Of a stretch of 34,110 nt of DNA, positions 10,926 through 24,169 are shown one piece after another (position 1 is the stretch's first letter; each line of letters opens with the position of its first letter). The DNA is taken from assembly GCA_026224975.1 (NCBI GenBank), contig JAMFRW010000541.1, positions 1 to 34,110 of the forward strand, in the 5' to 3' direction. This DNA is from Rhodoferax sp. (GTDB lineage Bacteria > Pseudomonadota > Gammaproteobacteria > Burkholderiales > Burkholderiaceae_C). The translations under genes and the position numbers were made by a program. Below the pieces are notes generated by a model. That model was given only the letters and a program-made list of their open reading frames with translations, did no database searches and was not told the origin of the DNA.

Positions 10926-12014
10926 ATGAGCGATGTCGACACCGTCAAGCCCAGCTTCGAGCCCAAGCAAGGCATCTCCGCCGAGGCGACCACCGTCGCG
11001 CTGCAAGACACCATGCTCACGCCGCGCTTCTACACCACCGACTTCGCGGCCATGGACCGCATCGACGTGAGTTCGATCCGCCCGCAGTGGGATGTGCTGA
11101 TGAACGAGTTCCGCAGCGACACCAACGACGACCACTTCCAGCGCCCGGCCGACATGATGGGCGATTGCTCCAAGCTGCCGCCGGCGCTCTACCAGGAGTT
11201 CTCGGACTTCCTCATCAGCTCCATCACCTCGGAGTTCTCGGGCTGCGTGCTCTATGCCGAGATCAAGAAGCAGGTGAAGAACCCCGACATGAAAGAGCTC
11301 TTCGGCTACATGGCGCGCGACGAATCGCGCCACGCCGGCTTCATCAACCAGTGGCTGAAGGACTTCGGCATCGGCGTGGATCTGGGCTTTCTGGCGCGGG
11401 CCAAGAAGTACACCTACTTCAAGCCGAAGTTCATCTTCTATGCGACGTATCTGTCGGAGAAGATCGGCTATGCGCGCTACATCGCGATCTACCGGCAGGT
11501 AGAACGCCACCCCGAGCTTTGTTTCCATCCGATCTTCAAGTGGTTCGAGCGCTGGTGCAACGACGAGTTTCGCCACGGCGAAGCGTTCGCGCTGCTGCTG
11601 CGGGCCAACCCTCAGTTGCTGCGCGGCCTCAACAAGCTCTGGATCCGCTTCTTCGTGCTGGCGGTCTTTGCGACCATGTATGTGCGCGACCACCAGCGGC
11701 CGGAGATGCATGCGGCGATGGGGCTGGATGCGACGGCGTATGACTTCGAGGTGTTCCGCATCACCTCGCAGATCACCAAGCAGGTGTTCCCGCTCACGCT
11801 CAACCTCGACGACGCGCGCTTTGCGGCCGGGCTCGAGCGCATGCGGCGGATCTCGGTGGCGACCGAAGCGGCGAAGAAGCGCGGCGGGCCGATCGGCGGC
11901 GTGAAGCGGCTGGGCCTGGGCCTGGCGGCGGGCGCGACCTTCGTGCGGCTCTTCTGCCTGCCGGCCACGCCGAACGCGCTGCCGCAGAACGCGCGCCTGG
12001 CGCCAACCTGGTAA
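10926..12014 (+). CDS. acsF: Aerobic magnesium-protoporphyrin IX monomethyl ester (oxidative) cyclase
   Basis: Diiron carboxylate motifs ([43 protein letters not shown]); ATG at 10926 chosen over the upstream TTG start. Confidence 0.95.
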
Positions 12015-12026
12015 GCAGCGAGCAGC

Positions 12027-12872
12027 TTGCCAGTGACCGAGTTCCTTGGTGCGCATCCGATCATGCTCAACCACCTCCTGCCGGTGCTCTACGTGCTGTT
12101 CGTCTGGTGGTTCAGCACCGGCGTGATCCTCTACCTGGACGGCCTGCCGCGCTGGACCTTCAAGTGGACGATGCTGTTCACCACGCTGCTGCTGGGCCTG
12201 GCGCTCGCCGGCCTCTACGCCACGCGTGACGACACGCGCATCACCGGCGCTTACCTCGCCTTCAGTTGCGCGGTACTGGTCTGGGCCTGGCAGGAGGTGG
12301 CGTTTTTGCTCGGCTACGTGACCGGCCCACGCCGCACCGCCTGCCCGCTGGATGCGCAGGGGTGGCGCCGCGCCGGCTTTGCGCTGCAGGCCGTGCTGCA
12401 CCACGAACTGGCGCTGGTGGTGCTCGCGCTCGCGGTGGTCGCCGTGACCTGGGGCGGCGCCAACCACACCGGGCTCTTCACCTTCATGATCCTCTGGGTG
12501 ATGCGGCAAAGCGCCAAGCTCAATGTGTTCCTCGGCGTGCGCAACCTGAACGAAGGCTTTCTACCGGCGCACCTCGAGTACCTGCAAAGCTACTTCACGC
12601 GGGCGCGCATGAACTCGCTGTTTCCGGTCTCGGTTGTGCTCTCGACCTGGCTCGCCGTCCTGGTGTGGCAGGGTGCGACCAGCCACGGCATCGGCCGCTT
12701 CGAGGCCACGGCCGCGACCTTCAGCGCCACCTTGCTGAGCCTCGCGATCCTGGAGCACTGGTTCCTGGTGCTGCCGCTGCCGTCGGAGGCGCTGTGGAAC
12801 TGGGGGCTCAAGTCCCGCAAGCGCGTGCCGCCGGGAACGTCCATCGCACCTCCGGAAACCAAGCCCCTCTAG
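12027..12872 (+). CDS. puhE: Putative photosynthetic complex assembly protein PuhE (DUF3623-like)
   Basis: Multi-TM protein downstream of acsF; LGVRNLNEGFLPAHLEYLQSYF. Start may be TTG 12027 or GTG 12033. Confidence 0.88.
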   Translation: MPVTEFLGAHPIMLNHLLPVLYVLFVWWFSTGVILYLDGLPRWTFKWTMLFTTLLLGLALAGLYATRDDTRITGAYLAFSCAVLVWAWQEVAFLLGYVTGPRRTACPLDAQGWRRAGFALQAVLHHELALVVLALAVVAVTWGGANHTGLFTFMILWVMRQSAKLNVFLGVRNLNEGFLPAHLEYLQSYFTRARMNSLFPVSVVLSTWLAVLVWQGATSHGIGRFEATAATFSATLLSLAILEHWFLVLPLPSEALWNWGLKSRKRVPPGTSIAPPETKPL

Positions 12873-12949
12873 GCGGCATACCCGCCCCCATCTTCTTCAT
12901 CCGGCGCCTAGAATAAAACGGCCCGTCCCCGGGTGAAGGAGACTTGCAA

Positions 12950-14431
12950 GTGAGCCTCTCGACAGGCCTTCCGACCGACACCTCCCGCGAGGAGCCCGAC
13001 CTCGGCGCGCTTTCGCGCTGGGCGCCGGAGTTGGCCCGGACCTTTGTCTCGCTCGCGAGCGATATCGCCCTCGTCATCGATGACAGCGGCGTGATCCGCA
13101 ACGTGGCCCAGGGCCGCGGCGAGCCGCTCGCACCATCTGCCTCCCAATGGGTCGGCCGCCCGTGGATCGACACGGTGAGCGGAGACACCCGGGGCAAGAT
13201 CGAGCTGCTGCTCAACGAAGTAGCCACCAGCGGCATCGCCCGCAAGCGCGAGGTCAACCATCTGCTCACCGGCGGCGCGAGCGTACCGGTCTCGTACACC
13301 GCTGTGCGCCTCGGCGAAAACGGGCCGGTGCTGGCCGTGGGGCGTGACCTACGGGCCATCGCGGCCATCCAGCAGCGCTTTCTCGAATCGCAGCAGGATC
13401 TGGAAAAAGGCTACTGGCGCGCACGCCAGGCCGAGTCGCGCTACCGGCTGTTGTTCCAGGTCGCGACCGATGCGGTGATGGTCGTGGATGCCGAGAACTG
13501 GCAGATTCTGGAAGCCAACCAGGCCGCCTCCCAACTCTTCGACATAGCGGCCGAGCAGTTGCTCGGCCGGCCGGCGAGCTTCGGCTTCGAGCGACATTCG
13601 CGCAGCGCGGTCGATGCGCTGCTGACCTCCGCGCGCGCGAGCGGCCAGTCGGGCGAGATTGCCGCGCGCCTGCTCGGCCGCGTCACGCCGGCCAGCGTGG
13701 CCGCCACGCCGTTCCGCACTGACGACGCGATGCGCCTGCTGGTGCGGGTGCGCGCCGTTGATTCGCCGCAATCGTCGAGTGACCTCAACGCCGCCCTGGC
13801 GCGGCTGGTCGATGGCACCAGCGATGGCGTGGTCGTCACCGATTCGAGTGGCCGCATCCTCGTGGCCAACCCGGCCTTTCTGGCGTTGGTGCACCTGGGC
13901 GCCGAGGCTGATGTGAAAGGCCGCGCCCTCGCCGATTGGCTGGGCGAAGACGATCCCGCCCTCGCCGCGATGCTGGCGCAGGTGCGCCACCACGGCTTGG
14001 CCCGGCGCCGCGAGGCGAGCGTGCGGCCTGCCCATGCGCCGGCCTGCCGGATCGAGATCTCGGCCGCGCTGCTCACCGAAGGCGATCAGGAGTGCATCGG
14101 CTTCACCATGCGGCGCGTGGCGCAAGTCTCTGTCGCCGCGGCGGGTTTGTCGGAAGAACTGCGCCTCAGCATAGAGCAGCTCGCCGATCAGCTCGGCGAT
14201 GCGACGCTCCCGCAGTTGCTGCGGGATGCCACCGCGCTGGCCGAGCGCTACTTCCTGCAACTGGCCGCAGACCGCGTCGCTGGCGACGATGCCGCTGCCG
14301 CCGAACTGCTCGGCGTGAGCCGCGACGGCCTGGCGCGGCGCCGCCGCAAACACGCGCCGGCGCTCTCGGGCGGCGGTATGAGTGGCGCAAGCGATTCAGA
14401 TTCTTCCACCACCTCGTCGCCAAAAAGTTAA
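12950..14431 (+). CDS. ppsR: PAS-domain transcriptional repressor PpsR/CrtJ
   Basis: GTG 12950 with AAGGAG upstream; LGALSRWAPELARTFVSLASDIALVIDDSGVIRNVAQG plus multiple PAS regions and a C-terminal Fis-type HTH (AAAELLGVSRDGLARRRRKH). Confidence 0.93.
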   Translation: MSLSTGLPTDTSREEPDLGALSRWAPELARTFVSLASDIALVIDDSGVIRNVAQGRGEPLAPSASQWVGRPWIDTVSGDTRGKIELLLNEVATSGIARKREVNHLLTGGASVPVSYTAVRLGENGPVLAVGRDLRAIAAIQQRFLESQQDLEKGYWRARQAESRYRLLFQVATDAVMVVDAENWQILEANQAASQLFDIAAEQLLGRPASFGFERHSRSAVDALLTSARASGQSGEIAARLLGRVTPASVAATPFRTDDAMRLLVRVRAVDSPQSSSDLNAALARLVDGTSDGVVVTDSSGRILVANPAFLALVHLGAEADVKGRALADWLGEDDPALAAMLAQVRHHGLARRREASVRPAHAPACRIEISAALLTEGDQECIGFTMRRVAQVSVAAAGLSEELRLSIEQLADQLGDATLPQLLRDATALAERYFLQLAADRVAGDDAAAAELLGVSRDGLARRRRKHAPALSGGGMSGASDSDSSTTSSPKS

Positions 14432-16636: not shown

Positions 16637-16678
16637 CCGAGGTCCAGCGCGCTCCCGTGGCATCGCCAGGGCAGGCTC

Positions 16679-18118
16679 TTACGGCAGGGCGGCTTCGGCC
16701 AAAGGCATGTCCGCCGGAACGGTTGCTTCGAATTCTTCGGTGGGTTGGACCCACACAGTCTGGCGACCCGCCAAACGCCGCGCAGAGTCGTCGTCGAACG
16801 CGGCCTTCAGCGGGCCGATGGCACCCGGGTCGTACACGTATTCGACGTTCATATCGCCGCTCAGGATGATCGCCACCGGCAGCGCGTCGGTCGCCTTCCG
16901 CGCTGCCAACTCGCGCGAGATGGCGGGCATCAGGTTGTCGTCGATCAGCCGGTCGATGGTGCGGGCGCCACCGTCGGGCGAGCGGCACTTGTCGGCGATC
17001 AGGTAGCGGAATTCTTCGGTGTGGTACAGCTCGATGCGCCAGTGGGTGCGCAGCCGCTCGGCCAGGCGCGCCAGCGCGAGGCCCGGGGTCTCCAACCGAG
17101 GCGCGTCGCCCGGCAGTTGGGAGACGTGGCGGCTGTCGTTGCTGGATGTCTTGACGCTTGTTTGCAGTGGAACGGCCGCGACAGAGCGCGTGAAGACGGG
17201 TTGGGTGTCGGTCGAGCGGCGCCGTGTGCTGGGCGAAATCCAGCCGCCCGTGCCGACCCAGGCCAGATCATGCGGCCAGCCCTCGGCTTCGACGCCCGCC
17301 GTGCCGCGCATGCACAGCGCGGCAGCCTCGAAGGCCCAGTCGGTGTTTGCTGCCATCGCAGCTTCGGCGCCGGCGCCTTGCGCATCGGCCGCAGCTTCGC
17401 GCAAGGCGGCGCAATAAGCCCCGATCGCGCGCCGGTCGCCATCCGCGCTCGGCTTTGTCAGCGCACCTTGCAGGATGCAAAGCGCGGGCGGCGCGTCGGC
17501 CCAACGCGGCGTGCCGTTGTGATCGGTGAGCGGCAGGTGCGCCAGGGCGGCCAGCAGCACGTCCATCCCCGCGCGTTCGAGTTGCGGCTGGACCAATGCG
17601 GGGATGCGGTCTTCCAGCCCGAAGAGGCGGCACAAGGCCAGCAGTTGCAGAAAGTCGCGGTAATGGCCAGCGTCCCGCAGATCGCCGGGCGCTTGCACGG
17701 TGGTCGAGGGGCTGCGGCGCGCAAATAGGCGGTCGAACAGCCAGCGCCAGAGGCCGTAAGCGCGGATCACCTCGTGCAGGTCGGCGCTCAACTGACACAG
17801 GCTCACGCCGGCCGTGTAGTCGAAGCGCCAGAGTGCCAAGCGGTGATGAAAGACCAACTCGGCGGCGTACACGCGCTGAACCGCGGCGGCCGCCGCTTCG
17901 GGCCCGATCAGCGGCATCTGCAGGCGCTCTTCCATTGTTTTCAGAACGCGCTGCTGCCGAAGACGGGCGGTGCGCTCATCGGACGGGCTGAGCCACGGAT
18001 CGCGTCGCGGCGCGTGGGCGGGCGATGAAACCAATGCATCGGTAGAGGACATATCGTTTCTATCGTTTATGCGGATTTTTTCTTTATCGGCGAAAGGCCA
18101 GTCCACTGAACCGATCAA
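16679..18118 (-). CDS. Chimeric protein: PoNi-like (DUF1910/DUF1911-type) immunity region plus ClpV-like C-terminal domain
   Basis: N-terminal half HYRDFLQLLALCRLFGLEDRI...TDWAFEAAALCMRGTAGVEAEGWPHDLAW resembles the PoNi/DUF1911 layout; C-terminal ALARLAERLRTHWRIELYHTEEFRYLIADKCRSPDGGARTIDRLIDDNLMPAISREL resembles the ClpV D2 C-terminus. Start may instead be ATG 18052 (MSSTDALVSS). Confidence 0.65.
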   Translation of the reverse strand: MIGSVDWPFADKEKIRINDRNDMSSTDALVSSPAHAPRRDPWLSPSDERTARLRQQRVLKTMEERLQMPLIGPEAAAAAVQRVYAAELVFHHRLALWRFDYTAGVSLCQLSADLHEVIRAYGLWRWLFDRLFARRSPSTTVQAPGDLRDAGHYRDFLQLLALCRLFGLEDRIPALVQPQLERAGMDVLLAALAHLPLTDHNGTPRWADAPPALCILQGALTKPSADGDRRAIGAYCAALREAAADAQGAGAEAAMAANTDWAFEAAALCMRGTAGVEAEGWPHDLAWVGTGGWISPSTRRRSTDTQPVFTRSVAAVPLQTSVKTSSNDSRHVSQLPGDAPRLETPGLALARLAERLRTHWRIELYHTEEFRYLIADKCRSPDGGARTIDRLIDDNLMPAISRELAARKATDALPVAIILSGDMNVEYVYDPGAIGPLKAAFDDDSARRLAGRQTVWVQPTEEFEATVPADMPLAEAALP

Positions 18119-18190: not shown

Positions 18191-18514
18191 CTACCGCGTT
18201 GCGCCCGCGAGCAAAGGCAGCGTCGCTTCCACCTGAGCGATCGATTCGATCGCGCAGATCTGCGCGCCACTCCCGCCGCCCACAAACGCCACCGCCAGCG
18301 CACCTTTAGGGCACAGGCCGAGGCAGGTGGTGAGCGCGATGCGCGGCCGGGGCTTCAGGTCGCGCAGCGCTCGCCTCGCTTCCTGAACCACGGCCTTGGC
18401 CTTGAACCCGCGCGGGCCGTTGCTGCGCTTCTTGCACACGTTGCAGACCAGCAGCGCGGCGTTCCACGAGGGGCTTTCGAGCTTAGCCACCTTGGTGTTG
18501 GATTTGTCTTTCAT
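18191..18514 (-). CDS. (2Fe-2S) ferredoxin-like / DUF1636-type protein
   Basis: In-frame ATG at 18514: MKDKSNTKVAKLESPSWNAALLVCNVCKKRSNGPRGFKAK...RPRIALTTCLGLCPKGALAVAFVG; CxxC and CxxxC pattern of thioredoxin-like 2Fe-2S ferredoxins. Confidence 0.7.
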   Translation of the reverse strand: MKDKSNTKVAKLESPSWNAALLVCNVCKKRSNGPRGFKAKAVVQEARRALRDLKPRPRIALTTCLGLCPKGALAVAFVGGGSGAQICAIESIAQVEATLPLLAGATR

Positions 18515-18671
18515 GCGTCGATGATGGCCGGCAGCCCGTGAATCGGCAGGGGCCCACGCCGTAACCCTGGCCGGCGCCACGGGCAAAGCCGCCTACGGTG
18601 AATACCCGAAGCACCCCGATTTGTCTCCATCGCGACATCGAAAGCGCCCGCGCAGATGACACGATCCACCC

Positions 18672-20117
18672 ATGAGTTCCCTGCCCGATGGCCTGATCGT
18701 CGTTGCCAAGCGCGAATGCCCGACCTGCACGCTGGTCGAGCCGCTGCTGCGCGAACTCGCGCAGGGCCGGTCGCCGTTGACGGTCTACGTGCAGGACGAC
18801 GCGGCCTACGCGGCCGATGTGGCCGATGTGGCCGGCATGGTGTTCGACGAAACGCTGGAGCATTCCTTCCGACTCGGCATCGAGTTCGTGCCGACACTGA
18901 TCCGCGTCGAAGGTGGCCGCGAGGTCGCGCGCACGCACGGCTGGCACCGCGGCGACTGGCAGGAGATCAGCGGCCAGCCGGAACTCGGCGTGGCGCTGCC
19001 GCCCTTGCGGCCCGGTTGCGGCTCGAAGACGCTGGACCCCGGCATTGCCGAAGAGCTGATCGTGCGCTTCGGCAACACCGGCCTGGCCTCACGCAACGTC
19101 GAGATCGGTGGCGGCGAAGACCTCATGGAAGCGTGTTTCGAACGCGGCTGGACGGATGGCCTGCCGGTCGTGCCGCCCACACCCGCGCGCGTGCTGCGCA
19201 TGCTGCAGGGCACGACGCGCGCGCCCGACGAGATCATCGGCATGGTGCCGCCCGATCTGGCGCCGTGCACCGTCGAGAAGGTCGCCATCAACGCGGTGAT
19301 GGCTGGCTGCAAGCCCGAGTATCTGCCGGTCGTTCTGGCTGCGGTCGAGGCCGCGTTGATCGACGAATTCGGCATGCACGGTGTGCTCTGCACCACCATG
19401 TTTGCCGGGCCTGTGGTGATCGTCAACGGGCCGATGGCCAAGCGCGTCGGCGTCAACTCCGGCGTGAACGCGCTGGGCCAGGGCCACCGCGCCAACGCGA
19501 CCATCGGGCGCGCGCTGCAGCTCGTCATCCGCAACGTGGGTGGCGGCCGGCCGGGCGAACTCGATCGCTCCACGCTCGGCACGCCGGGCAAGTACAGCTT
19601 CTGCTTTGCCGAAGCCGAAGACCCGGGATGGGAATCGCTTTCGGTCGAACGCGGCTTCGCGCGCGACGCGTCGGTGGTGACGCTCTTTGCCGGCGAAGGC
19701 GTGCAGGGCATCGTCGACCAGAAATCGCGCACGCCGGAGTCGCTGGTGCGCAGCTTCGCTGCCTGCCTGCGGGCCGTCGATCACCCCAAGCTCGCGATGG
19801 CCGGCGATGCGCTGCTGGTGGTTTCGCCCGAGCACAGCCGCGTGTTCATGGAAGCCGGTTGGTCCAAGGCGAGGCTGCGCGAGGAACTCGGCCAGTTGTT
19901 GCTGTCGCCGGCCGACGAGATGCTGGCCGGCGCCGGCGGCATCGCCGAAGGGCTGCCACTCGTCATGGCCGGAACGCAGGTGCCCAAGTTCAGGCCGGGC
20001 GGCCTCATCATCGTTCGCGCCGGCGGCACCGCCGGCCTGTTTTCGGCGGTCATCGCCGGCTGGGCGGCCTCCGGCCCCACCGGCTCGACCCCTGTTTCGA
20101 AGGAGATCACTGCATGA
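18672..20117 (+). CDS. Thioredoxin-like N-terminal domain protein, UGSC-partner family
   Basis: 481 aa; N-terminal IVVAKRECPTCTLVEPLLREL thioredoxin-like CxxC, then ERGWTDGLPVVPPTPARVLRML...APCTVEKVAINAVMAGCKPEYLPVVLAAVEA; overlaps the selenoprotein start by ATGA (20114-20117). Confidence 0.8.
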   Translation: MSSLPDGLIVVAKRECPTCTLVEPLLRELAQGRSPLTVYVQDDAAYAADVADVAGMVFDETLEHSFRLGIEFVPTLIRVEGGREVARTHGWHRGDWQEISGQPELGVALPPLRPGCGSKTLDPGIAEELIVRFGNTGLASRNVEIGGGEDLMEACFERGWTDGLPVVPPTPARVLRMLQGTTRAPDEIIGMVPPDLAPCTVEKVAINAVMAGCKPEYLPVVLAAVEAALIDEFGMHGVLCTTMFAGPVVIVNGPMAKRVGVNSGVNALGQGHRANATIGRALQLVIRNVGGGRPGELDRSTLGTPGKYSFCFAEAEDPGWESLSVERGFARDASVVTLFAGEGVQGIVDQKSRTPESLVRSFAACLRAVDHPKLAMAGDALLVVSPEHSRVFMEAGWSKARLREELGQLLLSPADEMLAGAGGIAEGLPLVMAGTQVPKFRPGGLIIVRAGGTAGLFSAVIAGWAASGPTGSTPVSKEITA

Positions 20118-20641
20118 TCATGGAAACGCAAACCCTGCTCGACCCCACCTCGGAGCGCGCACCCGCCGCCCGGGCGCTGGCGGCGCGGCCGGCCTCGTTC
20201 GACGGAGCGACCGTCGGCATCCTCGACATCTCGAAGGCACGCGGCAACGTGTTCCTCGACCGCATCGCCGAGCGCCTCACCGAGCGCGGCATCGGCGTCA
20301 AGCGCTATCGCAAGCCGACCTTCACGCGCCCCGCGCCGGTGGCGCTGCGGCACCAGATCGCGGCGGAATGCCAGCTCGTCGTCGAAGGCCTGGCCGACTG
20401 AGGTTCCTGCACGTCGTGCTGTATGCATGACATCGTGGACCTCGAGGCGCGTGGCATTCCGGGAGTAGGTGTTGCCTCCAGCGAGTTCGTGGAAGCGGCT
20501 GCGATGCAGTCGAAAACGTTGGGTTTCGACCCGGCGATGGTGTTCGTCGCTCATCCGATCCAGGACCGGAGCGACGACGAGTTGCGCGCGCTCGCCGATG
20601 CGGCGTTGGAGGAGATCTTGCGGCGGCTTGTTTCTGACTGA
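20114..20641 (+). CDS. UGSC-family selenoprotein; in-frame UGA (20399-20401) read as selenocysteine (Sec96)
   Basis: Readthrough of TGA 20399-20401 gives ...QLVVEGLAD-U-GSCTSCCMHDIVDLEARGIPGVGVASSEFVEAAAMQSKTLGFDPAMVFVAHPIQDRSDDELRALADAALEEILRRLVSD*. The 20423..20641 ORF in the track is in the same frame; selA, selB and tRNA-Sec lie downstream. Confidence 0.93.
20413..20431 (+). promoter_or_regulatory. Candidate bacterial SECIS upper stem-loop
   Basis: GTCGTGC-TGTAT-GCATGAC: 7-bp stem (one G-U pair), 5-nt loop UGUAU containing G-U, loop starting 18 nt after the UGA. Confidence 0.75.
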
Positions 20642-20643
20642 GG

Positions 20644-20657
20644 GGCGCTGCGGCGCC
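20644..20657 (+). other. GC hairpin between the UGSC stop and the selA start
   Basis: GGCGC-TGCG-GCGCC, 5-bp perfect stem; selA GTG at 20666. Confidence 0.5.
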
Positions 20658-20665
20658 ACCGCCAC

Positions 20666-22114
20666 GTGACGCCCGTCGAGATGACGTCGGCTAGCGTCGC
20701 GCCGACGAACGCCGCGGTCCGGCCGCATCTGCCGTCCATCGACCGTGTGCTGGCCTGGCCGCCGCTGGTGGCGCTCGCCGAAGCGTACGGCCGCGCGCTG
20801 GTGCTCGAAGCCGCACGCGAGGAGTTGGCGGCTTGGCGAGAAGCAGGCCGTGCCGACGGCGCTCGAGTTGACATCGAGGCCGGCATAGCAGCCCGAGTCA
20901 TCGCCCGCGTCCAGCCCTCGCTGCGCCCCGTCTTCAACCTCACCGGCACTGTCCTGCACACCAACCTCGGCCGCGCACCGCTGCCCGCGCAAGCCATTGC
21001 CGCCATGATGCGAGTGGCGGCCGGCGCCTCCAACCTCGAGTTCGACCTGACGACAGGCAAGCGCGGCGACCGCGACGATCACGTGGAAGCCTTGTTGCGC
21101 AAACTCACCGGCGCCGAAGCCGCGACCGTCGTCAACAACAACGCGGCCGCCCTGATGCTGGTGCTCAACACGCTGGCCAGGCGCCGCGAGGTCATCGTCT
21201 CGCGCGGTGAATTGATCGAGATCGGTGGCGCATTTCGCCTGCCCGACATCATGGTGCAGGCCGGTTGCCGGTTGCGCGAGGTCGGCACAACCAACCGCAC
21301 CCACCTGCGCGACCACGCCGAAGCGATCGGCCCACGTACCGGGCTGATGCTCAAGGTGCACACGAGCAACTACCGAATCGATGGCTTCACCGCCGCGGCC
21401 GACGAACGCGCGCTCGGCGACCTGTGTCGGGAACGCGGCGTGCCCTTCGTCATCGACCTCGGCAGCGGGGCGCTCTGCGACCTCACGCGCTTCGGCCTGC
21501 CGCACGAACCCACGCCCGCCGAAGCGCTGGCGGCCGGCGCCGACCTCGTGACCTTCAGCGGCGACAAGCTGCTGGGCGGCCCGCAGGCCGGCATCATCGT
21601 CGGCCGCGCCGACCTCATCGCAAAGCTCAAGAAGAACCCGTTCAAGCGCGCGCTGCGCTGCGACAAGCTCACGCTGGCCGCGCTCGGTGCGGTGTTGCAG
21701 CTCTACGGCGATCCGGACCGGCTCGTGGCCCAAGTGCCCACGCTGCGCCTGCTCGCGCGGCCGGCGGTGCAGATCGAGGCTGTGGCGCTGCGGATGCAAC
21801 CCATCGTGGCCGCCTGGGCCGGCGAGCGCGCGCGGGTCACTGTGCAGCCGGTGCAAAGCCAGATCGGCAGCGGCGCCTTGCCGATCGACATGCTGCCGAG
21901 CCACGCGCTGCAGTTCGCACCGCCGGGGCCCAAGCGATTGTCGGGACGCGCGCTCGATCAGCTCGCGGCCGGCCTGCGCAATCTCGCCGTGCCGGTGATC
22001 GGCCGCATTGGGGATGGCGCGTTGTGGCTGGATTTGCGTTGCCTGGAGGACGAGGGGGGCTTTGCGGCGCTGTTCGGGCCTGCCGCCAGCGCGATGGTCG
22101 CCACAGCCCCGTGA
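20666..22114 (+). CDS. selA: L-seryl-tRNA(Sec) selenium transferase
   Basis: RPVFNLTGTVLHTNLGRAPLP...NNNAAALMLVLNTLA...VIDLGSGALCDLTRFGLPHEPTPAEALAAGADLVTFSGDKLLGGPQAGIIVGR (PLP lysine region). GTG 20666 or ATG 20681 start. Confidence 0.97.
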   Translation: MTPVEMTSASVAPTNAAVRPHLPSIDRVLAWPPLVALAEAYGRALVLEAAREELAAWREAGRADGARVDIEAGIAARVIARVQPSLRPVFNLTGTVLHTNLGRAPLPAQAIAAMMRVAAGASNLEFDLTTGKRGDRDDHVEALLRKLTGAEAATVVNNNAAALMLVLNTLARRREVIVSRGELIEIGGAFRLPDIMVQAGCRLREVGTTNRTHLRDHAEAIGPRTGLMLKVHTSNYRIDGFTAAADERALGDLCRERGVPFVIDLGSGALCDLTRFGLPHEPTPAEALAAGADLVTFSGDKLLGGPQAGIIVGRADLIAKLKKNPFKRALRCDKLTLAALGAVLQLYGDPDRLVAQVPTLRLLARPAVQIEAVALRMQPIVAAWAGERARVTVQPVQSQIGSGALPIDMLPSHALQFAPPGPKRLSGRALDQLAAGLRNLAVPVIGRIGDGALWLDLRCLEDEGGFAALFGPAASAMVATAP

Positions 22115-24045
22115 TCATCGCCACCGCGGGCCATGTCGACCATGGCAAGACCAGCCTCGTCAAGGCGCTGACCGAGATCGACACCGACCGGCTCGCCGAA
22201 GAAAAGCGCCGCGGCATGTCGATCGACATCGGCTTTGCGTATGCCGATGTGGGCGCGGCCACGCCGCTCGGCTTTGTCGACGTGCCCGGCCACGAGCGCT
22301 TCGTGCGCAACATGCTGGCGGGCGTGGCCTGCATCGATCTGGCGCTGCTCGTGATCGCCGCCGACGACGGGCCGATGCCGCAGACGCACGAGCACCTCGG
22401 CATCCTCACGCTGCTCGGCGTGCCGCGCTGCGTGGTCGCGCTGACCAAGATCGATCGGGTGGCGCCCGAGCGGCTGGTGCAAGCCGAGCGCGAAGTGGTG
22501 GCGTTGCTGCAGCCCGGGCCGTTTCGCGGTGCACCGGTCTTTCCGCTGGTCGCAACCCACGGAACCGGCGTGCCGGCCTTGCGCCAGCATCTTGCGGATG
22601 CTGCCGTGGCGTTTGCGGCGCGTCCGGTGGCAGGGCACTTCAGGCTCGCCGTGGACCGCAGCTTTGCGCTGGCAGGCGCGGGGCGCATCGTCACCGGTGC
22701 GGTGCTGTCCGGCCGCGTGCAGGTGGGCGATCAGGTGATCGTCTCGCCGCGCGGCACGGCGGCGCGCGTGCGCGGCATCCATGCGCAGAACCAGCGTGCC
22801 AACGTAGCCGTGGCCGGGCAGCGCTGCGCGCTCAACCTGGCCGGCGTCGATCTCAAAGATGCCGAGCCCGTGCGCGGTGATTGGGTCGTGGCCCCCGACG
22901 CACACGCGCCCACCGATCGCCTCGACGTGCAGCTCGACGTGCTCGCCAGCGAGCCCAAGGCACTCGCGCACCGGGCCGCGTTGCAACTGCACATCGGCGC
23001 CGCCTCGGTGAACGCGCGCGTGGCCACACTCGACGGCCCGAGCATCGCGCCGGGCGCCAGCGGCATGGCGCAGTTGAACCTGGAACGGCCCATCGCCGCG
23101 CTGCATGGCGACCGCTTCATCCTGCGTGACAGCGCCGCGGGCCGAACCGTGGCTGGGGGCCGGGTCATCGACCCCTTCGGGCCTGCGCGAGGCCGCTCGA
23201 AACCGGCGCGTGCCTTGCACCTGGCGGCAATGGCGCTGAGCGCGCCGGCCGACGCGTTGGCGGCGATGCTGGCAGCCGAACCCGACGGCATAGCCCTGCA
23301 GCGCTTTGCGTTGGCGCGCAACCTGACTGCCAGCGAAGCAGCGGTGTTGCGGGAGCCGCTGCATTCGCCCCTGCATGCGCCCTTCCGCAGTTCACCCGGC
23401 ATCGTGGTGATGGCAGCCGGCTCCGCGCCCATTGCCTTGTCGAGCACTCACTGGCAGGCGTTGCGGGAGCGCGTACGCGCTGCCGTCGCGCGCTGGCACG
23501 CGGACCGGCCCGACAGCGTGGGCGCCAGCGAAGCGGCCCTGGCCGAGCTGCTCGGCATGCGGCGAACAGTGCCGCTGCTGCACGCAGCGCTCGCGTCGAT
23601 GGTGGAAGACGGCACCGCCGCGCGCGAAGGCCTGCGCTTGCGCCTCGCCGATCACCGCGCCGTGCTGTCGCAGTCCGACAGCGATTTGCTGGACCGCGTG
23701 ACAACCCTGTTGCAGCCCGCAGGCCTGCGGCCCCCGATCGTCGGCGAACTCGCCACGCTGCTGGCCCTCCCCCAGCCCGAATTGATCGACTTCCTGACGC
23801 GCGCCAGCCAGCTCGGCGCACTGGTGCGCGTGGCGCCGAACCGCTTCTACCTGCCGCACACCGTGGCCGAGTTGATCGCACAAGCGCGGAAGCTCGCCGC
23901 CGAATCGGAAGATGGCCGCTTCGATGCCGCCGCCTACCGCGACCACACTGGCATCGGCCGCAACCTGACGGTGCAGGTGCTCGAATTCATGGACCGCGAA
24001 GGCGCGACGAGCTTCGATGGCGCGCGCCGCATGCCGACGCCTTGA
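22111..24045 (+). CDS. selB: Selenocysteine-specific translation elongation factor
   Basis: GTG at 22111 overlapping the selA TGA; [44 protein letters not shown] GTPase motifs, C-terminal winged-helix repeats; 644 aa. Confidence 0.97.
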   Translation: [644 protein letters not shown]

Positions 24046-24073
24046 CCAAACCCGCGTGCTAAGGTCTTGCCAC

Positions 24074-24169
24074 GGAAGAGAAACACATCCTGGTGGAGTG
24101 CCCGGTCTTCAAAACCGGCGAGACGCGCTCAGCGTGTCTGGTGGGTTCGACTCCCACTCTCTTCCGCCA
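24074..24169 (+). tRNA. selC: tRNA-Sec (anticodon TCA)
   Basis: 8-bp acceptor GGAAGAGA/TCTCTTCC, anticodon loop CTTCAAA (TCA at 24109-24111), long variable arm AGACGCGCTCAGCGTGTCT, T arm GTGGGTTCGACTCCCAC, GCCA end. Confidence 0.97.

Follow-up and report, generated by a model that had tools for sequence, protein, structure and literature searches.

A single open reading frame in the genome of a photosynthetic bacterium, Rhodoferax sp., joins a PoNi-like domain, of the kind known from immunity proteins of the type VI secretion system (T6SS), to the C-terminal piece of the T6SS motor protein ClpV. This fusion is probably the product of an in-frame deletion in a T6SS locus of the type found in Roseateles koreensis, consisting of an immunity-like gene with a ClpV tail carried along as a passenger. 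The central evidence was that the two halves independently found their closest relatives in the same small R. koreensis locus, which indicates that the protein arose by the joining of two genes of such a locus. The protein is therefore most likely a relic, or else an orphan gene of the immunity type whose ClpV tail is a passenger. The fusion and its parts, given by position in the window (the whole stretch of DNA analyzed, 34,110 nucleotides), were the following:

16679 to 18118, minus strand: fusion open reading frame, 479 aa, TTG start, without internal stop.
18052, minus strand: ATG, the likelier start of the fusion, giving 457 aa.
17201 to 17938, minus strand: PoNi-like (DUF1910/1911-type) helical domain, residues 61–306, assigned by a sub-threshold PoNi_N match, BLASTP, hhalign, alignment, and a fold match to 2fef.
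17084 to 17200, minus strand: linker, residues 307–345, with no detectable homology and predicted to be disordered; the junction lies within it.
16682 to 17083, minus strand: ClpV/TssH C-terminal piece, residues 346–479, comprising a D2-small domain (347–411) and a C-terminal extension, assigned by Pfam, NCBIfam, and 46–47% identity to the R. koreensis ClpV.

The fusion frame is real, intact, and coding. The open frame of 479 residues reported in an earlier note on this DNA was present without any stop, and its coding composition supported the frame. Codon-position composition and codon usage preferred this frame across most of both halves; the signal in the linker was weak and in the same frame, and residues 1–60 were unsupported. 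From about residue 61 onward, the GC3 was 81% in the N-terminal half and 92% in the ClpV tail, most neighboring genes having values of 83–92%. Since residues 1–22 lacked coding composition (GC3 50%), the ATG at 18052 was preferred as the start. A chance open reading frame at 16679–18118 (minus strand) was ruled out by the coding statistics and by homology above the level of shuffled sequences.

The N-terminal half is, as judged by homology, a divergent PoNi (DUF1910/1911) immunity-type protein, even though it stays under the Pfam thresholds for PoNi: PoNi_N scored below its cut-off (17.3 versus 22.4 bits, E 0.005) and PoNi_C gave no match. By BLASTP, a true PoNi encoded in a different genome of the order scored 49–50 bits over about 190–210 residues, the best of 200 shuffles being 24 bits, and hhalign against a PoNi profile gave 92% probability over 106 columns. 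When this half was aligned with six PoNi proteins, positions in common were observed throughout the domain, including P.DLA and the PoNi_C-type motif WAFEAAA. The AlphaFold model (pLDDT 65, pTM 0.66) was compared with the PDB by Foldseek, and PA2201 (2fef) was the sole credible match (prob 1.00, TM 0.60, E 2e-3), with the caveat that PoNi rows were present in the alignment underlying the model; a true PoNi also matched 2fef by sequence. The earlier note had read this half as PoNi/DUF1911-like and had suggested profile comparison and structure prediction as checks, and both bore out the assignment.

The N-terminal half resembles PoNi proteins (PF08928/PF08929; structures 2fef, 9vy2, and 9waq) in its all-helical fold, motif pattern, and length, but differs from them in its sub-threshold Pfam scores, in being joined to a piece of ClpV, and in having no PoNe toxin recognized beside it in the window. 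The genes next to the fusion were a phytochrome gene and a gene for a 131-aa protein without a family match. A DUF1911 gene adjoins about 90% of PoNe genes, orphan PoNi genes have been proposed or allowed for, and PoNi has been reported to protect against its cognate PoNe only (PMC6688995).

The C-terminal half (residues 346–479) is, on profile and alignment evidence, the D2-small domain of ClpV/TssH followed by a C-terminal extension. Pfam ClpB_D2-small (PF10431) matched residues 347–411 above its cut-off (E 3.2e-9, 37.1 versus 21.9 bits), and the NCBIfam model TssH/ClpV1 (TIGR03345) matched at profile positions 778–844 of 852 only (31.6 bits versus a cut-off of 885). No AAA family was matched when the protein was scanned with Pfam and NCBIfam, in agreement with the ClpV D2 C-terminus without Walker motifs that had been described in the earlier note. 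The likeness to ClpV/TssH thus extended over the last ~80–130 residues, whereas the N domain, the D1 and D2 AAA+ core, and the Walker motifs of that family were missing from the fusion. An extension of about 45 residues past the normal ClpV end was common to the fusion tail and the R. koreensis ClpV and was missing from the other tails compared. The tail was not a copy of the ClpV resident in the same genome, to which it was 22% identical, against 46–47% to that of R. koreensis.

Furthermore, a role of the tail in sheath contact, for which the earlier note had proposed a ClpV-derived module, was discarded. ClpV is recruited to the sheath by the binding of TssC through its N-terminal domain (PMC5048182), which is absent from the fusion.

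In a search of the whole family, a single genome matched both halves strongly, at two sites separated by 4.4 kb that share a strand and follow the order of the fusion. This genome was that of Roseateles koreensis hw8 (contig NZ_JAQQXS010000006.1, L057). The tail matched its ClpV with an E-value of 5.6e-25 and 47% identity (103 bits in a second comparison), and the N-terminal half matched a PoNi-like frame with an E-value of 5.1e-20 and 46% identity (65 bits in the second comparison); the maximum of 200 shuffles was 28 bits. A contig scan of genomes with an alignment of the N-terminal half alone, which rested on two short peptide patterns, found the R. koreensis locus and no other. One strand of this locus carries TssC, TssG, and TssF (named from sequence and from alignment to other T6SS loci), and the divergent strand carries the PoNi-like frame, a complete ClpV (956 aa, in a 970-aa open frame), a DUF2169 protein, and others. 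The PoNi-like frame (842 aa, in an 863-aa open frame) has a PoNi-like N-terminal part followed by an RlpA-type DPBB domain, so that RlpA-like sequence stands between the PoNi-like part and clpV. The locus carries the nearest relatives of both halves but, unlike the fusion, keeps them in two separate frames with RlpA/DPBB sequence between them and with ClpV complete. The open frame at 11116–13644 (minus strand) of the R. koreensis contig, which contains both the PoNi-like and the RlpA-type DPBB sequences, shows a signal-peptide-like stretch at their border and may represent two overlapping genes or another fusion.

The position of the R. koreensis relative beside clpV, RlpA-like sequence, and TssF/G/C raised the question of whether the N-terminal half could be a T6SS accessory protein of a rare locus type, acting next to ClpV and having the PoNi fold only, without being an immunity protein. 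No PoNe was recognized among the genes named in that locus, and the sub-threshold Pfam scores point in the same direction. Nevertheless, the likeness to true PoNi spans most of the domain, WAFEAAA included, the fold matches, and examination of other T6SS stretches from the genus revealed no relative of the N-terminal half. An accessory role was thus considered the least probable of the explanations weighed here, with only a slight chance of being right.

We infer that the ancestor was a T6SS locus of the R. koreensis type, in which a PoNi-like frame would have preceded clpV on one strand. The intervening DNA, together with roughly the first 820 clpV codons, would have been lost in a deletion, which may have come before or after arrival at the present site, and the PoNi-like gene would thereby have come to run at its end in frame into the last ~134 codons of clpV; the remainder of such a locus is absent from the current site. 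The N-terminal half, which looks complete as a helical domain, could still provide orphan immunity by binding PoNe-type DNases that enter the cell. As for the tail, it would most likely be a passenger without a function of its own, a folded D2-small lid lacking the ATPase core and the sheath-recognizing domain.

Because both halves have their nearest relatives a short distance apart in a single T6SS cluster, a leftover of a deletion is most likely, rather than a purpose-built two-part protein, and the chimeric relic that the earlier note had offered as one possibility became the favored reading. The predicted full-length model (pLDDT 60, pTM 0.45) also favored a deletion: disordered residues 271–345, which include the linker, stand between a helical N-terminal domain and an alpha-beta tail domain folded separately from it. 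Against it, no ancestral unfused locus was found close to the Rhodoferax genome, R. koreensis being just ~46% identical and having the RlpA-like sequence between the genes; in addition, nothing else of a T6SS adjoins the gene, and all seven invariant ClpV tail positions were kept in the fusion (12-sequence alignment). The linker, compared in any frame with the R. koreensis locus, gave no significant homology by which the junction could be placed.

The retention of these invariant positions would also suit an orphan immunity protein of two domains maintained by selection, in which the PoNi-like half neutralizes a PoNe-type DNase and the D2-small tail is kept for oligomerization, stability, or docking. 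The intact frame, the coding composition continuing through the tail, the two folded domains of the predicted model, and the proposal of orphan PoNi genes mentioned above agree with such a protein. However, D2-small in known ClpB/ClpV proteins works together with the neighboring AAA+ core, which is absent here, and the fusion tail kept 17 of the 37 columns conserved at 70% in ClpV, the lowest number among 50 tails (22 in R. koreensis). The tail is thus either a divergent ClpV subtype or mildly drifting. As the architecture was moreover found in one genome only, a selected two-domain protein was judged unlikely.

The fusion was looked for in genomes sampled at the levels of genus, family, order, and class, and was seen once; it was not found in the genus-mates searched, and a contig scan of genomes with the single protein gave no match. 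The earlier note had suggested looking for the same architecture elsewhere, and these searches yielded none, so a functional architecture was not supported. Further copies may have been missed, since scoring in the large groups was limited to a few best candidates from each genome and since the contig scan used the two short patterns. The same note had named a single occurrence combined with signs of decay as evidence against its proposal: the single occurrence was found, and decay was not, as no positive sign of it was present in a gene without stop codon or frameshift and with a high GC3 in the tail. No description of a PoNi-ClpV fusion was found in a title- and abstract-level search of part of the literature. 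Additionally, plasmids gave no match to the fusion, and the only match among phage records, a weak one to ClpV, was in two contigs labeled Acinetobacter phage; hence, a phage or plasmid origin was set aside. None of the anti-phage defense families was matched.

Orphan T6SS immunity genes and islets such as SAIDI-1 have been described (PMC7400221). The fusion resembles them as an immunity-type gene outside a T6SS locus and without an obvious effector, and differs from them in consisting of a single gene that is joined to part of a structural protein of the T6SS. As a relic, the gene would capture a T6SS locus in the course of breaking down, a deletion having left an immunity-type gene joined to a remnant of the motor. 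Should the protein still be protective, it would represent an orphan immunity gene with a motor fragment, and would provide a naturally occurring test of the effect, if any, of this fragment on PoNi assembly. The case also shows that homology to a ClpV tail alone is no marker of a T6SS.

The window is the whole of one contig (C215) of a draft genome of 615 contigs that is 87% complete. Together with the occurrence of the architecture in one genome only, this leaves some room for an assembly artefact, namely a false join between two parts of a genuine T6SS locus. Such an error was nevertheless considered improbable: the joint is in frame, as a random misjoin would be one time in three; the missing part of clpV was on no other contig of the genome; and there was no repeat at the joint beyond a weak 29-nt similarity elsewhere in the gene. 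Another T6SS was present elsewhere in the genome, with TssF-TssG-ClpV on contig C460 and TssC on contig C355; the ClpV on C460 was a different one, and no clpV fragment of the R. koreensis type was found outside the fusion.

The contig neighbors were bacteriochlorophyll and reaction-center genes, a PAS/Fis regulator, a phytochrome, and a selenocysteine module. No T6SS component was detected among the window proteins scanned, and TssC, TssF, TssG, and the DUF2169 protein of R. koreensis matched nothing there. The placement of the gene outside any T6SS locus, between a phytochrome and a selenium locus, had thus been correctly described for this contig. The stop of the fusion lies 42 bp from that of the phytochrome gene. 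In three genus-mates (L116, L117, and L118), the phytochrome orthologue is followed by different genes (box-type benzoyl-CoA genes, a beta-lactamase-like hydrolase, and a heme-oxygenase-like protein, identified from their open reading frames) at the equivalent of position 16637 onward in the window, which shows the site after the phytochrome gene to be variable among genus-mates. On the other side, the upstream end of the fusion frame lies 72 bp from the neighboring gene of that strand (18191–18586, minus strand). This gene encodes the 131-aa protein, which contains cysteines and had no Pfam or NCBIfam match, and it may share a transcript with the fusion.

At 18672–20117 (plus strand), upstream of the selenoprotein, a 481-aa protein is encoded that begins like a thioredoxin and matched no Pfam or NCBIfam family. 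This protein was absent from nine genus-mates, and the selenium locus may therefore be a local acquisition. The selenocysteine module that follows (20120–24169, plus strand) contained:

20399 to 20401, plus strand: TGA crossed by the frame of a UGSC-motif selenoprotein (LVVEGLADUGSCTSC).
20666 to 22114, plus strand: selA.
Within 21265 to 24045, plus strand: selB frame.
24074 to 24169, plus strand: tRNA-Sec (UCA).

In a plain list of open reading frames, the selenoprotein appears truncated at its Sec codon.
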